Source: Salipiger bermudensis (GTDB lineage Bacteria; Pseudomonadota; Alphaproteobacteria; Rhodobacterales; Rhodobacteraceae). From it: a stretch of DNA of 64,000 nt. A program made the position numbers and the translations under genes. Location of the stretch: assembly GCF_020171625.1 (NCBI RefSeq), contig NZ_JAIUZY010000005.1, positions 186,001 to 250,000 of the forward strand, given 5' to 3'. Under the pieces are notes generated by a model. The model was not told the origin of the DNA. It saw nothing but the letters and a program-made list of their open reading frames with translations, and ran no database searches. Of this stretch, positions 1,605-59,545 are shown piece after piece; position 1 is the first letter of the stretch; each line of letters opens with the position of its first letter.

Positions 1605-2220
1605 GTGTCAGCTCTCCGATGGTCAGGACGACTGCATTTGGATCTGTGATGCTTGTACGCTGTACGACGTGGAAGTTCCACGATTTCCGTGCCTCGGCGA
1701 CTTCATCTTGCCAAGTGGCGCCCTTCAGGAACACGCTCTGCCCGTCTGGTGCGAGGTGGCGCTTCGAAAAACTCAAAAGTTTGGGAAGATCCGCAAGGGC
1801 GCGTGCGCTCAGGATATCTGCCTCAAGAGGCGCAAGCTGCTCGATCCGCGCAACTTTTACGTCAGCGCTGACGCCGGTTTCGCGCAGAACGGAGCGGAGA
1901 AACACGGCTTTGCGCTGATCGGACTCGACCAGCGCAACCTTGAGCTTGGGTGCAAGTTCATGCGCGAGAATTGCCACCACGAGACCGGGAAAGCCGCCCC
2001 CTGCCCCGAGATCCGCCCAAAAGCCTTCATCTTTATTGCGAAGTTCGAACACCTGCGCGGAATCGATGATATGGCGGTTCCAGCCATCGGCCAGCGTGCT
2101 CTTCGCCACGAGGTTGATCTTCGGCGACCATTTCTCGAGCATCGACGCGAAGTGATGCAGCCGCTCTTGTGTTTCACGTGAAACATCGAGGCCCGGCAGG
2201 CGCGCATCAAGAAGGCTCAT
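1597..2220 (-). CDS. rsmG: 16S rRNA (guanine-527-N7)-methyltransferase RsmG
   Basis: Methylates N7 of G527 in 16S rRNA using S-adenosylmethionine; formerly called GidB. The 207-residue protein has the expected SAM-binding glycine loop ([10 protein letters not shown]) and the family N-terminus with a VSRET segment. That VSRET stretch is encoded by a perfect 16-bp parS palindrome (2170-2185), so the gene doubles as a centromere element. The ATG at 2220 overlaps the mnmG stop (ATGA arrangement), and the 3' end overlaps parA by 8 bases. The mnmG-rsmG-parA-parB order is the usual one near bacterial origins. Confidence 0.96.
2170..2185. promoter_or_regulatory. parS site 1 (ParB-binding centromere)
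   Basis: A perfect palindrome TGTTTCACGTGAAACA, identical to the widely conserved chromosomal parS consensus. It lies inside the 5' part of rsmG. Its companion lies 1.9 kb away at 4078, and the genes for its binding proteins are adjacent. Confidence 0.95.
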
Positions 2221-4085
2221 GCGGATTTCGCCTGACCATGACGACGAAGCCGAAGGAGCAGGAGCGACAGCGCGGCCGGCGTCATGCCATCGACCTTCGC
2301 CGCCTGGGCGAGGTTCTCGGGACGGGCGAGAGACAGCTTGTGCTTCAGTTCGTGCGAAAGCCCCTCGACGCCAGCGAAATCAAACCCATTCGGGATCGTC
2401 AGCGCCTCGTCACGGCGAAGCGCGTCGACATCCTTCTGCTGACGCGCGATGTAGTTGGCATAGAGTGCGTCGCGCTCGAGCTGCTGAGCAATCTCCGGCT
2501 CAACGGCATCAAATGCAGGTTCTCCCGCTGCGAGTGTCTTCAGTAAGACGTCCGGGAACGCGAGAAGTTGAAACCCGTTGCGCTTCTGACCATCCGAAGA
2601 GACCTGAATCCCCATCGGTGTCAACTCCTTGGGCGAGAACTGGCGCGATTCCAGAAGATCGCGACCGGCGGTCAGCTTCTCAAGCTTCTCAGTAAACGCA
2701 ACCCGACGCTCTTCCGAGACACACCCCAGTTCGATGGCGCGCGGCGTCAGGCGCTGGTCGGCGTTGTCGGCGCGCAGAGAGAGACGGAACTCCGCACGCG
2801 AGGTGAACATGCGATAGGGCTCGCTCACACCCCGCGTCGTCAGGTCATCGATCATCACACCAATATAGGATTCGGCGCGCCCGAAATGCACGCTCCCCTT
2901 CCCCAGAGACTCCATCGCGGCGTTCATACCGGCGACAAGACCCTGTGCCGCGGCTTCTTCGTAGCCCGTAGTGCCGTTGATCTGCCCCGCGAGAAAGAGC
3001 CCGCCGACATTGCGCACGGCAAGGCGGAGGTCGAGCGAGCGCGGATCGACGAAATCATACTCGATCGCGTAGCCCGGCTGCAGGATCTCGGCGCGCTCGA
3101 GACCGAAGATCGACCGCACGTAATCGAGCTGCACCTCTTCCGGAAGCGACGTGGAAATGCCGTTCGGGTAGATGGTGTGATCGTCCAGGCCCTCGGGCTC
3201 GAGAAAGATCTGATGAGAGGTTTTGTCGGCAAACCGAACGACCTTGTCCTCGATCGACGGGCAATACCTAGGGCCGACCCCCTCGATATGACCGCCATAC
3301 ATCGCGGAACGGTCGAGATTATCTCGAATGATCGCGTGCGTACGTTCGTTGGTATGGGTGATGCCACAGCTGATCTGGCGCGCGGCCGGGGCCTTGGACA
3401 GGAACGAGAACAGCACCGGGTCTTCGTCGCCCGGCTGTTCTTCAAGCTCCGTCCAGTCGACCGTGCGGCCATCCAGACGCGGCGGCGTGCCGGTTTTGAG
3501 ACGTCCGAGTTCAAGACCGAAATGGTCGATGCGCTCCGCAAGCCTGACGGACGGGCGATCCCCCATCCGTCCGCCGGGGCGGCGTTTGTCGCCGATATGA
3601 ATCACGCCACGCAGGAAGGTGCCGGTGGTCAACACCACGGCACCGCAGCGAAGCTCTGAGCCATCTTCGAGCACCACGCCCTCGACCGTATCGCCGGACA
3701 TCATCAGGTCGACGACTTCCCCGGCGATGATGCTGAGATTCGGAGTTGCTTTCATCTCGCGCAGCATCGCTTCGCGATAGAGTTTGCGATCTGCCTGGGC
3801 GCGGGGGCCCTGTACCGCGGGCCCCTTACGGCGATTCAAAAGGCGGTACTGGATGCCCGCTTGATCCGCGGCACGGCCCATGACCCCGTCGAGCGCATCG
3901 ATTTCGCGAACGAGATGCCCCTTCCCAAGCCCGCCGATTGCCGGGTTGCAGGACATCACGCCGATCCCTGCCTCGGTCAGCGTGACCAGTGCGGTTTTGG
4001 CGCCCATGCGCGCAGAGGCCGAAGCGGCATCCGCCCCAGCATGTCCGCCGCCCACGACGACAACGTCGAAATCACGATGTTTCAC
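2217..4085 (-). CDS. mnmG: tRNA uridine-5-carboxymethylaminomethyl modification enzyme MnmG
   Basis: FAD-dependent partner of MnmE that makes the cmnm5 modification at wobble uridine 34 of certain tRNAs. Seen: the N-terminal dinucleotide fold [10 protein letters not shown], the conserved [22 protein letters not shown] region, and a [10 protein letters not shown] segment near the end of the FAD domain. I choose the GTG at 4085 (MKHRDFD start, 622 residues): it lies 8 bases after an AGGAG at 4094-4098. An in-frame GTG at 4094 would overlap that Shine-Dalgarno. The whole space between Shine-Dalgarno and start codon is filled by parS site 2. The gene starts just after the mnmE stop and its own stop overlaps the rsmG start. 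Confidence 0.95.
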
Positions 4086-4093
4086 GTGAAACA
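4078..4093. promoter_or_regulatory. parS site 2, in the translation initiation region of mnmG
   Basis: A second perfect TGTTTCACGTGAAACA palindrome. It covers the spacer between the mnmG Shine-Dalgarno (AGGAG, minus strand, 4094-4098) and reaches into codons 1-3 of mnmG (GTG at 4085). The site is therefore constrained both as a ParB target and as a ribosome-binding region. Confidence 0.94.
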
Positions 4094-5400: not shown

Positions 5401-6672
5401 TCAGCTGTTCATCGAGTCGAAGAATTCCGAGTTCGTCTTGGTCTGCTTGAGTTTCGACAGCAGGAATTCGATGGCGTCGGTGGTGCCCATCGGGTTGAGG
5501 ATCCGACGCAGCACGAAGGTTTTCTGCAGATCGACCTTGTCGATGAGCAGATCCTCTTTCCGGGTGCCCGACTTAAGAATGTCGATCGCCGGGAACACCC
5601 GCTTGTCCGAGATCTTGCGATCCAGAACGACCTCGGAGTTGCCCGTGCCCTTGAATTCTTCGAAGATCACCTCGTCCATGCGGCTGCCGGTGTCGATCAG
5701 CGCGGTCGCGATGATGGTGAGCGAGCCACCTTCCTCGATGTTCCGTGCCGCACCGAAGAACCGCTTCGGCCGCTGCAGCGCGTTCGCGTCGACACCACCG
5801 GTCAGAACCTTGCCCGACGACGGCACGACAGTGTTGAACGCGCGGCCAAGTCTTGTGATCGAATCGAGAAGGATCACAACATCTCGCTTGTGTTCGACCA
5901 GGCGCTTGGCTTTTTCGATGACCATTTCCGACACCGCCACGTGGCGCGTCGCCGGTTCATCGAAGGTCGAGGAGACCACTTCGCCCTTCACGGACCGTTG
6001 CATGTCGGTGACTTCCTCGGGGCGTTCGTCGATCAGCAGGACGATCAGGAAACACTCGGGGTGGTTTCTCTCGATCGAAGTGGCGATATTCTGCAGCAGA
6101 ACCGTCTTACCGGTCCGCGGCGGCGCCACGATCAGCGAGCGCTGCCCCTTCCCGATCGGGCACACGAGGTCGATGATCCGGGCGGAGCGATCCTTGATGG
6201 TCGGATCCTCGATCTCGAGCTTCAGGCGCTCGTCGGGATAGAGCGGCGTGAGGTTGTCGAAGGCGACCTTGTGGCGGGCGCGCTCGGGATCTTCGAAGTT
6301 GATCTTCGAGACATCGACCAGCGCGAAATAGCGTTCTTCGTTGTCGGGCGCGCGGATTTCGCCTTCGATGGTGTCACCGGTGCGCAGCGAATACTTCCGG
6401 ATCATCTCGGGCGACACGTAGATGTCGTCTGGACCGGGGAGATAGTTCGCTTCCGGGGAGCGCAGGAAGCCGAAACCGTCCTGGAGAACCTCGAGAACGC
6501 CGTCACCGCAGACTTCCCAGCCTTCATCTGCCCGCTCGCGCAGGATCTGGAACATCATCTCGCCCTTGCGCATGGTCGAGGCGTTCTCGATCTCGAGCTC
6601 TTCGGCCATCGAGAGCAGATCCTTGGGGCTCTGCGCCTTCAGGTCAGAGAGGTTGAGCGTTTCGCTGCTCAT
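5401..6672 (-). CDS. rho: Transcription termination factor Rho
   Basis: Hexameric RNA-dependent helicase that ends transcription of untranslated RNA. From the ATG at 6672 the protein is 423 residues and begins [13 protein letters not shown] longer in-frame reading exists upstream, but this ATG has AAGG 7 bases before it and gives the usual N-terminus. Seen: the N-terminal helical and cold-shock-like RNA-binding domain ([19 protein letters not shown], about 66-83), Walker A at about 184-191 (PPRTGKTV), and the [12 protein letters not shown] catalytic segment. It is the first gene of the leftward run from the proposed origin and probably carries that run's promoter upstream. Confidence 0.97.
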
Positions 6673-6783
6673 GCTGAATCCTTTCGGGCCGTGCGTGGTC
6701 GTCGGCCTCAAAACTGTCTTTGGCTGGGAAGTGATCAGCCCGAACGGGCGTCGGAGTCGGATTTAGTCATCACGGCGCGATGA

Positions 6784-7208
6784 GTCAATCTTGCTGAGAG
6801 ATCGCGGGTCCGGAGGCGGGGCCTCCCTTATCTCAAGAAAGAAAGAGAAAGGATGATTTTGGTTTAGGCCCCCTCGAGTCCGGTGGATTATTGAGTTCTC
6901 TCAGAGTTTTCCCGGTTCGCACAGCCTGTGGATAAGATTGTGGGACTATTTTGGTCTAAGTAGAAATTAACCGGAATTATCGTTCGTAAACATGGGCTTG
7001 AATGAAACATACAGTCGTGGGACAACTTCTGTAAAGGCGGGGGAGCGTCGGGGCCATCCCCAGTGGGGAGTTATCCATGCCCACAGACTCAGGAATCACC
7101 CCGGCGCGCCGTGAAACGCCCGAGTTTTCCCCGTGCTTGCATGTCTGAGCGATTTTCCTCAGAACCATCCCCCGACAAGACCCCAAAGATCTCGACAGGT
7201 TTTTCCAC
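6784..7208. other. Candidate chromosomal replication origin (oriC)
   Basis: Non-coding gap between the diverging rho and maf genes. It holds a perfect DnaA box on the minus strand at 6927-6935, a 7-of-9 match at 6882-6890 (minus) and 7071-7079 (plus), and an 8-of-9 match TTTTCCACA at 7201-7209 touching the maf start. A purine tract lies at about 6834-6853 and AT-rich stretches run to about 6990, in DNA otherwise rich in GC. GANTC sites occur at 6754, 6782, 6876, 7086 and 7211. Genes on both sides read away from the gap, and parS sites are 2.7 and 4.6 kb away. From memory, the origin of Caulobacter lies upstream of the same maf-aroE-coaE-dnaQ-secB gene run. I see no open reading frame of merit here. 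Confidence 0.75.
6927..6935 (-). promoter_or_regulatory. Perfect DnaA box
   Basis: TTATCCACA on the minus strand (TGTGGATAA on plus), exactly the high-affinity DnaA consensus. It lies in the middle of the rho-maf gap and is the strongest single element supporting an origin there. Confidence 0.85.
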
Positions 7209-7808
7209 ATGACTCTGCCGTTCATCCTGGCCTCCGGGTCCGAAATCCGGGCCGAGCTGCTTCGGAAAGCGGCGGTTCCGCACCGAATCGAGCCCGCGCG
7301 AGTCGATGAATCCGCCATCCGCGACTCACTGGAGGCCGAGGGGGCCTCTCCGCGCGATGTGGCGGACGCGCTGTCGGAGTATAAGGCGCGTCGCGTGTCT
7401 CAGAAGAACCCCGGCGCCTTCGTTCTGGGCTGCGATCAGGTCCTCGCGCTCGGAAAAGAGGTGTTCGCCAAGCCCGAAACGCCTCAGGCGTGCCGAGACC
7501 AGCTGATCCGGCTGCGCGGCGAACGGCATCACCTCTATTCCGGCGCCGTGATCTATCAGGATGGCGAGCCGGTCTGGCGTCATGTGGGGGTCGCGCGGCT
7601 GGTGATGCGCGACTTTTCGGATGCCTATCTCGACGATTACATCGCCCGGAACTGGGAGAGCGTTCGCCACTCGGTCGGCGGCTACAAGCTCGAGGAAGAA
7701 GGCGTGCGCCTCTTCGCCCGCATCGAGGGCGATCATTTCACCATTCTCGGGCTGCCCCTGCTCGAACTTATCGCCTTTCTGCAGGTCCGGGAGATCATCG
7801 CCGCATGA
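7209..7808 (+). CDS. maf: Maf-family nucleoside triphosphate pyrophosphatase
   Basis: House-cleaning enzyme that hydrolyses non-canonical or surplus nucleoside triphosphates to monophosphates. The 199-residue protein has the family N-terminus ILASGSEIRAELL, an LGCDQV motif, and the SVGGYKLEEEGVRLF segment of the C-terminal half. The ATG at 7209 sits immediately next to a DnaA-box-like TTTTCCACA, so its promoter must lie in the candidate origin. Its TGA overlaps the aroE ATG. It is the first gene of the rightward run. Confidence 0.92.
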   Translation: MTLPFILASGSEIRAELLRKAAVPHRIEPARVDESAIRDSLEAEGASPRDVADALSEYKARRVSQKNPGAFVLGCDQVLALGKEVFAKPETPQACRDQLIRLRGERHHLYSGAVIYQDGEPVWRHVGVARLVMRDFSDAYLDDYIARNWESVRHSVGGYKLEEEGVRLFARIEGDHFTILGLPLLELIAFLQVREIIAA

Positions 7809-52870: not shown

Positions 52871-53216
52871 ACATTGCTTTGGGGGGACAGGCAAGCAGCG
52901 CAACGCCCGCGTTATCTGGGACGTTTGCACTGCGCTTTGGCGGTCTGCTGCACCAGCCGCCAGAACAGGGCGTTTGCCCTGCCAGTCCGAGGTATACAAA
53001 TGCGCGGACAGCGCTGACCTAGGTCGGTCTTTGGTTGGGATGCCAAGGGCGCAGGCAGGTGTTGTCCGTCCGGAATGCGTATCATTCCAGCCCATGCCGT
53101 CATGGCATGGGGCAGAGACCTGTTCCCGCATCACATGTGTCCGCCGGGCGGCTCACTCAGATCGCCCGAGATGACGAGATGGATGAATGGCAGTCAGGCT
53201 TTCGGAGCGGGGACAA

Positions 53217-54602
53217 ATGACAAAAGACCAGTGGGGCGCATTGCAGAGCCAGCTGAGCAGTACGATTGGGGAGAACAACTACAAGACCTGGATCGAACCC
53301 ATGGAGTTCCACGGCGTGGAACCCGGTGGTGTGGCCGTGTTCAACGTGCCCACCAACTTCATCGGCACCTACGTGTCGCAGAATTTCGGCGACATCCTTC
53401 TTGCCAAGCTTTCGGGGATGGACACCGATGTGCGCCGGCTGAAGTTCCAGGTCGCCAATGCGGACAACCGCCCGGCGGCGGCCCAGCAGCAGCCGCGCCC
53501 CGCGGCGCAGGCACAGGCGCAGCCGGCCCCGGCCGCCGCGGCGCCGACCAACAGCGACCTGCTGCCCGGCGCACCGCTCGACGGCCGCTTCACCTTCGAC
53601 AGCTTCGTCGTCGGCAAGCCCAACGAGCTGGCCCATGCCGCGGCCAAGCGCGTTGCCGAAGGCGGTCAGGTGACCTTCAACCCGCTGTTCCTCTATGGTG
53701 GCGTGGGCCTTGGTAAGACCCACCTGATGCACGCCATCGCCTGGGACCTGCGCAACAACCGGCCCGACCTGAACGTGCTCTACCTCTCCGCCGAGCAGTT
53801 CATGTACCGTTTCGTGCAGGCCCTGCGCGAGCGCCGGATGATGGATTTCAAGGAGCTGTTCCGCTCGGTCGACGTGCTGATGGTGGACGATGTCCAGTTC
53901 ATCGCCGGCAAGGATTCGACGCAGGAAGAGTTCTTCCACACGTTCAACGCGCTGGTGGACCAGAACAAGCAGATCATCATCTCGGCCGACCGCGCCCCGG
54001 ACGAGATCAAGGACCTCGAGAACCGCATCCGCTCGCGGCTCCAGTCCGGTCTCGTGGTCGATCTGCATCCCACCGACTACGAACTGCGTCTCGGCATCCT
54101 TCAGTCCAAGGTCCAGAACTATCGCGAGCAGTACCCCGCGCTGCAACTCGATGACGGCATCCTTGAATTCCTCGCCCATCGCATCTCGACCAACGTGCGC
54201 GTGCTTGAAGGCGCGCTGACCCGGCTGTTCGCCTTCGCCTCGCTGGTCGGCCAGCCGATCACCATGGAGCTGACGCAGGATTGCCTTGCCGACGTGCTGC
54301 GCGCCTCGGATCGCAAGATCTCGATCGAGGAGATCCAGCGCAAGGTGGCCGAGCACTACCACATCCGCCTCAGCGACCTCATCGGGCCGAAGCGTGTGCG
54401 CAACTTTGCCCGCCCGCGTCAGGTCGCGATGTACCTGTGCAAGCAGCTCACCGCCCGGTCGCTGCCCGAGATCGGCCGCCGCTTCGGCGGGCGCGACCAC
54501 ACCACCGTCATGCACGGGGTGAAGCGCATCGAGGAACTGCGCACGCAGGACAGCCAGATCGCCGACGACGTGGAGCTTCTGCGCCGCGCGCTCGAGGCCT
54601 GA
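53217..54602 (+). CDS. dnaA: Chromosomal replication initiator protein DnaA
   Basis: AAA+ initiator that binds DnaA boxes and melts oriC. From the ATG at 53217 the protein is 461 residues. Domain I is at about 1-80. The domain II linker (about 83-112) is a Pro/Ala/Gln-rich low-complexity stretch. The AAA+ domain has Walker A GGVGLGKT (161-168) and DVLMVDDVQFIAGKD, and domain IV ends with the GRDHTTVMHGVKRIEE helix-turn-helix. It lies 46 kb from the candidate oriC at 6.8 kb, so dnaA and oriC are not adjacent here. dnaN follows after 180 bases. Confidence 0.97.
   Translation: MTKDQWGALQSQLSSTIGENNYKTWIEPMEFHGVEPGGVAVFNVPTNFIGTYVSQNFGDILLAKLSGMDTDVRRLKFQVANADNRPAAAQQQPRPAAQAQAQPAPAAAAPTNSDLLPGAPLDGRFTFDSFVVGKPNELAHAAAKRVAEGGQVTFNPLFLYGGVGLGKTHLMHAIAWDLRNNRPDLNVLYLSAEQFMYRFVQALRERRMMDFKELFRSVDVLMVDDVQFIAGKDSTQEEFFHTFNALVDQNKQIIISADRAPDEIKDLENRIRSRLQSGLVVDLHPTDYELRLGILQSKVQNYREQYPALQLDDGILEFLAHRISTNVRVLEGALTRLFAFASLVGQPITMELTQDCLADVLRASDRKISIEEIQRKVAEHYHIRLSDLIGPKRVRNFARPRQVAMYLCKQLTARSLPEIGRRFGGRDHTTVMHGVKRIEELRTQDSQIADDVELLRRALEA

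Positions 54603-55938: not shown

Positions 55939-59545
<3,607 letters not shown>

Follow-up and report, generated by a model that had tools for sequence, protein, structure and literature searches.

In the Rhodobacteraceae, a replication origin adjoining maf is conserved according to DoriC, and the predicted oriC of Ketogulonicigenium vulgare Hbe602, as well as the DoriC origins of the family, were likewise located in silico and directly beside maf (PMC4793288). Origins were assigned for 101 strains by Ori-Finder, skew, and parAB, with eight strains unassignable (PMC6699656), and those of Rhodobacter sphaeroides were located via skew together with replication and partition loci (PMC6315104). 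In almost all genomes analyzed, parAB was found near ori, and dnaA of Rhodobacterales was placed close to ori, with the ori-ter axis resolved in twentieths (PMC8116508). The origin of Caulobacter crescentus (Cori) is located between hemE and a DUF299 gene (PMC1914354), and GANTC sites are on record within it (PMC3973325).

The window, i.e., the whole stretch of 64,000 nucleotides that was analyzed, covers positions 186001-250000 of the 554-kb contig C5 in a 4.74-Mb draft genome of 39 contigs, and the best matches of its Maf protein among named genomes came from two strains of Salipiger bermudensis (96 and 92%). The rho-maf intergenic gap of this window is almost certainly the DnaA-dependent oriC of the main chromosome, as predicted from the features in Table 1. 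The gap adjoins maf, with the last DnaA box reaching into its start. A maf-adjacent origin some distance from dnaA is the usual arrangement in Rhodobacteraceae, and because such origins are already published, the identification belongs to a known kind and is sound and unsurprising. It fixes the location of the origin, and hence the replichore coordinates, for a Salipiger genome.

Compared to K. vulgare Hbe602, the genus is a different one and the other flank is formed by rho. The gap has DnaA boxes, an AT-rich stretch, and GANTC sites in common with Cori, whereas Cori is flanked by hemE and DUF299 and carries five CtrA sites, and the Salipiger gap is flanked by rho and maf and carries one CtrA-like site (PMC1914354, PMC3973325). 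This one match to TTAA-N7-TTAA in the gap, at 6956, has one mismatch and falls short of the several sites of the Caulobacter type, while the GANTC sites agree with that type. The hemE and DUF299 flanks of the Caulobacter/Rickettsia type were not found around the gap, as hemE lies on contig C8 and no DUF299 gene was found in the window genome. The likeness to Caulobacter would therefore be limited to the maf-secB side, given that a maf-aroE-coaE-dnaQ-secB run presumably also lies beside the Caulobacter origin.

Table 1. Coordinates of the predicted origin, its sequence elements, and neighboring genes in the window
Feature	Position	Strand	Basis or remark
parS TGTTTCACGTGAAACA	2170..2185 (C5:188170)		exact match scan
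parS TGTTTCACGTGAAACA	4078..4093 (C5:190078)		exact match scan
rho, left neighbor	5401..6672	-	TIGR00767
rho-maf gap, predicted chromosomal oriC	6673..7208 (536 bp)		skew minimum, box cluster, conserved positions
GANTC (CcrM-type) cluster, ten sites	6754..7327		densest 600 bp of C5
AGTCAAT	6783..6789	+	identical in 20/20 aligned Salipiger gaps; overlaps GANTC at 6782
Purine tract, 19 nt	6835..6853	+	longest purine or pyrimidine run in 64 kb (next 14)
GATGATTTTG after purine tract	6852..6861		largely conserved in gap alignment
Weak DnaA box TAATCCACC, 7 of 9	6882..6890	-	GTGGAT core conserved
Perfect DnaA box TTATCCACA	6927..6935	-	only perfect box on 554-kb C5
Candidate DNA-unwinding element	6932..7011		nearest-neighbor stability scan
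Weak DnaA box TTATCCATG, 7 of 9	7071..7079	+	motif scan
TTTTCC half-box	7125..7130	+	motif scan
Weak DnaA box TTTTCCTCA, 7 of 9	7153..7161	+	TTTTCC-CAGAA conserved (alignment)
8-of-9 DnaA box TTTTCCACA	7201..7209	+	overlaps first base of maf start codon
maf, right neighbor, opens maf-aroE-coaE-dnaQ-secB	7209..7808	+	Maf-like NF002690, below curated cut-off
Most of flagellar block between origin and dnaA	22000..42000		absent here in G001, G014
dnaA, then dnaN, recF	53187..54602	+	TIGR00362, TIGR00663, TIGR00611

The cumulative GC skew of the full 554 kb of C5, one contig of the 39-contig draft, had a single V-shaped minimum at window position 5991. It fell up to this point and rose beyond it, with dnaA (53 kb) on the rising arm, and in a two-segment fit the break fell at kb 192 on the contig, which corresponds to kb 6 of the window. 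The minimum sits within rho, 0.7 kb to the left of the gap, an offset within the resolution of the method. On the 4.6-Mb contig of a relative (G017), sampled in 40 stretches of 20 kb, the skew minimum was the sample holding the equivalent rho-maf gap, and the local minimum was at most 1 kb from that gap. All 14 samples through the gap-holding one were negative (near zero in the latter), those following it were positive to about 3.7 Mb except for one at 2.65 Mb, and the skew was negative again beyond. A replicon minimum, as associated with oriC, was thus located at the gap in the 554 kb of C5 and in the 40 samples of G017. An earlier note on this DNA had taken the gap for the chromosome origin and proposed the skew as a check; both minima lie near the gap, the one on C5 away from dnaA, and support that claim. 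The earlier note had also named one perfect and one 8-of-9 DnaA box, which are both present, and two 7-of-9 boxes, of which there are in fact three.

While the DnaA-box cluster in the gap is sparse, it exceeds chance in dinucleotide shuffles, against permuted boxes, and in the scan of C5. Two boxes with at most one mismatch compare to a mean of 0.08 in the shuffles (reached by 10 of 2000), five with at most two mismatches to a mean of 0.98 (7 of 2000), and six TTWTCC half-boxes to a mean of 0.87 (0 of 2000). The half-boxes form the densest cluster on C5, with three at most elsewhere. C5 carries 22 boxes with at most one mismatch, and only the rho-maf gap has two of them within 450 bp, in a scan for boxes and parS that ran piece by piece and could let sites spanning piece boundaries escape.

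The surroundings of the gap are conserved. In all 78 named loci holding both genes, rho and maf were divergent, and the order parA-rsmG-gidA-trmE-rho / maf-aroE-coaE-dnaQ-secB was kept in 50 of 50 Rhodobacteraceae-type loci where the genes were detected. All ten genes occurred in 40 of these 50 loci, the remainder being cut by contig ends or without a detectable gene. Boxes with at most one mismatch were counted over the 460 bp preceding maf, its start included, with 300 permuted 9-mers as control. The 20 Salipiger sequences held 53 boxes, at least one in each, compared to a permuted mean of 1.5 and a maximum of 14, and 0 of 300 permutations reached 53. The 40 loci from other genera, most of these in the Rhodobacteraceae, are mutually non-independent and include metagenome bins; they held 118 boxes compared to a mean of 3.4 and a maximum of 28 (again reached by 0 of 300), and 39 of them carried at least one box before maf. 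The density of boxes relative to the flanks (a ratio of 12.4) was discarded in favor of the permuted-box control, since the flanks have a higher GC content.

By position, a box with at most one mismatch occurred in 17 of 20 Salipiger sequences on the minus strand about 283 bp before maf (the 6927 site), in 20 of 20 across the maf start (the 7201 site), and in only 2 of 20 at the 7071 site. A separate site 17 bp to the left of 7071, about 155 bp before maf, carried such a box in 9 of 20 sequences and is absent in the window. In the other genera, 32 of 40 loci had a plus-strand box starting at most 20 bp before maf. Against a background of drifting sequence in the gap alignment, the boxes, the AGTCAAT towards rho, and TTTTCC-CAGAA are conspicuous. 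Among 97 gaps, obtained from 99 sequences that include several Salipiger genomes under two loci (L045 and L086 gave none), boxes with at most one mismatch were absent inside the gap in four: L026, L067, L112, and L113, with L026 and L112 belonging to one genome.

DnaA boxes also occur in promoters, and the gap could be a divergent rho/maf promoter with DnaA-regulated transcription only, the origin lying elsewhere, for example at dnaA. The box overlapping the maf start and the conservation of AGTCAAT towards the rho end would suit such a promoter. It is nevertheless a highly improbable account, as the skew minimum is at the gap and not 46 kb off at dnaA, the window box (at most one mismatch) nearest to dnaA lies only at 57274, and no other place on C5 matches the box pair of the gap. 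That the boxes cluster by chance in an AT-rich gap draws on there being just two with at most one mismatch. Given how rarely the shuffles match this count and how well the box positions are conserved compared to permuted-box controls, chance can practically be dismissed, and an origin in the gap is the preferred reading.

GC content was 52% in 6784-7208 compared to 65% window-wide, and the candidate unwinding element was the third least stable 80-bp window of C5 among windows at least 300 bp apart, while two of the four least stable ones were at contig ends. The element reaches into the edge of the perfect box, so that computed stability points to an unwinding element beside a box, as described for oriC. 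Sequence conservation was not found in the AT-rich middle of the gap in the alignment of Salipiger gaps. The purine tract and AT-rich stretches that had been described before were borne out, and relatives were AT-rich at the offset of the tract.

The gene called maf scored under the curated cut-offs of its families, and gene order in relatives agrees with the assignment; it is followed by aroE, coaE, dnaQ, and secB. On the other side, the parA product is a ParA/MinD-type ATPase, and the ORF immediately to its left is ParB-like as judged by eye. The only two exact parS sites on C5 lie 2.6 and 4.5 kb to the left of the gap. Two parS sites within 5 kb and the divergence of rho and maf around the gap had been claimed from the first reading of the sequence, and both hold.

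The GANTC sites, several of which had been noticed earlier in the gap, number three within 6784-7208 and ten in less than 600 bp across the gap and the beginning of maf, compared to 1.2 expected from the window mean. The next densest stretch of C5 holds seven sites and is at the contig end. In 20 of 20 Salipiger sequences, 3 to 11 sites per 590 bp were found compared to 0.4 to 1.2 in the flanks, while 36 other Rhodobacteraceae-type loci had a mean of 3.5 compared to 1.1, with no site in four loci. When the densest 590 bp of each locus was determined, it coincided with this place in 8 of 10 Salipiger loci, compared to 9 of 36 among the other Rhodobacteraceae-type loci and 1 of 24 in the Rhizobiales-type set, and GANTC density as a family rule was dropped. 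The GANTC peak of the Rhizobiales-type loci was 1.2-1.5 kb ahead of maf and close to the boxes of these loci. In Salipiger as well as in other Rhodobacteraceae, none of GATC, GAGCT, and CTAG was as prominent as GANTC in the three bins around the maf start, and CTAG peaked just before maf in the Rhizobiales-type set, where their origin does not lie. In the literature on GANTC and replication origins, of which the available parts (PMC8116508, PMC3973325, and PMC11514494 included) give partial coverage, a statement on Salipiger was not found.

What the analysis itself shows is the location of the gap, its boxes, the skew, a low computed stability, the parS sites, and conservation. In the proposed mechanism, DnaA-ATP would bind the perfect box at 6927, the weaker boxes, and the TTWTCC half-sites; four of these sites (7071, 7125, 7153, and 7201) are arranged head to tail on the plus strand towards maf. 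The DnaA filament would then melt the AT-rich stretch 6932-7011 lying between boxes, helicase would be loaded, and two forks would leave, one via rho-parA and one via maf-secB. ParB at both parS sites would segregate the new origins, and the clustered GANTC sites, hemimethylated after fork passage, could mark a newly fired origin. The GANTC cluster is a concrete place to ask whether the firing of origins is timed by CcrM methylation in bacteria other than Caulobacter. That the Salipiger origin and maf/rho form one methylation-timed switch, in which the GANTC sites and the box at the maf start tie firing and expression to fork passage, is a speculative and rather doubtful extension.

The distance from dnaA to the gap is 46.0 kb. 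In 149 genomes, both genes were on one contig in 57, of which 50 were measured; G034, G065, G076, G080, G106, G124, and G171, in which the contig begins with dnaA and maf is far around it, were left out, while G086, also with a dnaA-opening contig, was kept at a linear 122 kb. In these 50 family genomes, the maf-dnaA start-to-start distance ranged from 20 to 506 kb with a median of 96 kb, and was below 50 kb in 10 and below 20 kb in none. The 46 kb of the window is therefore near the low end of the family, which fits the placement of dnaA in PMC8116508. Towards the maf side, dnaA was found in 33 of the 50 genomes, in 25 of them on the maf strand, and on the other side in 17. A single contig carried both genes in 16 of 19 Salipiger genomes, with a distance of 45-47 kb in nine and of about 24 kb in four. 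In three Salipiger relatives (G003, G007, and G012), dnaA lay across the origin and 59 to 132 kb away, suggestive of inversions or relocations in its surroundings. Across the family, origin position and box layout are kept, while dnaA drifts in both distance and side.

Between 14.6 and 42.5 kb, ten ORFs were profiled, two of which are EPS-type (14.6-19.4 kb) and eight flagellar (20.5-42.5 kb). By sequence comparison, the 22-42 kb segment is missing from this location as one unit in G001 and G014, which retain the EPS-type genes and the MotB-like and hook-like genes of 19.6-21.8 kb, and is mostly present in G009, G017, and G018. For the FlhA encoded in the block, G009, G017, and G018 gave a close match (84-94%), G001 gave none, and G008, G014, and G015 gave only a distant one (40-41%) on another contig. 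While G001 and G014 were compared in sequence, G008 and G015 were judged by FlhA alone; as far as FlhA tells, the block is therefore gone from these four genomes and not merely moved. A second, distant FlhA-type gene (41%) was observed in the window genome itself (G000:C12:137517-139493), which may therefore have a further flagellar or type III export set.

The earlier note had the flagellar and EPS blocks separating the origin from dnaA, and the blocks do lie between them. A recent parting, in which the two were near neighbors in the Rhodobacteraceae ancestor until these insertions arrived, would match this position and the prevalence of dnaA on the maf side, often on the maf strand. It is unlikely, as none of the 50 genomes has dnaA within 20 kb and 17 have it on the opposite side, and G001 and G014 are without the 20-kb flagellar block here, yet dnaA is 24 kb off. 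The rho-maf origin is read as lying apart from dnaA in the way usual for the family.

Read from gene order and not from a tree, the neighborhoods of relatives form a series that looks like stepwise gene loss around a fixed origin. In Mesorhizobium ciceri (L085), rho and maf are likewise divergent with DnaA boxes between them, but UPF0093, hemE, and DUF299 genes lie between rho and maf, and the boxes lie either in the hemE-DUF299 interval or at the DUF299 start. The UPF0093 gene of this locus is taken to be HemJ-like. The rho-maf gap measures about 1 kb in many Rhodobacteraceae, and that of L034 holds a UPF0093 (HemJ-like) gene on the rho side of the origin, while the Salipiger gaps of about 540 bp are too short for one. 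L031 and L041 carry a protein similar to the UPF0093 product of L034, as judged by eye.
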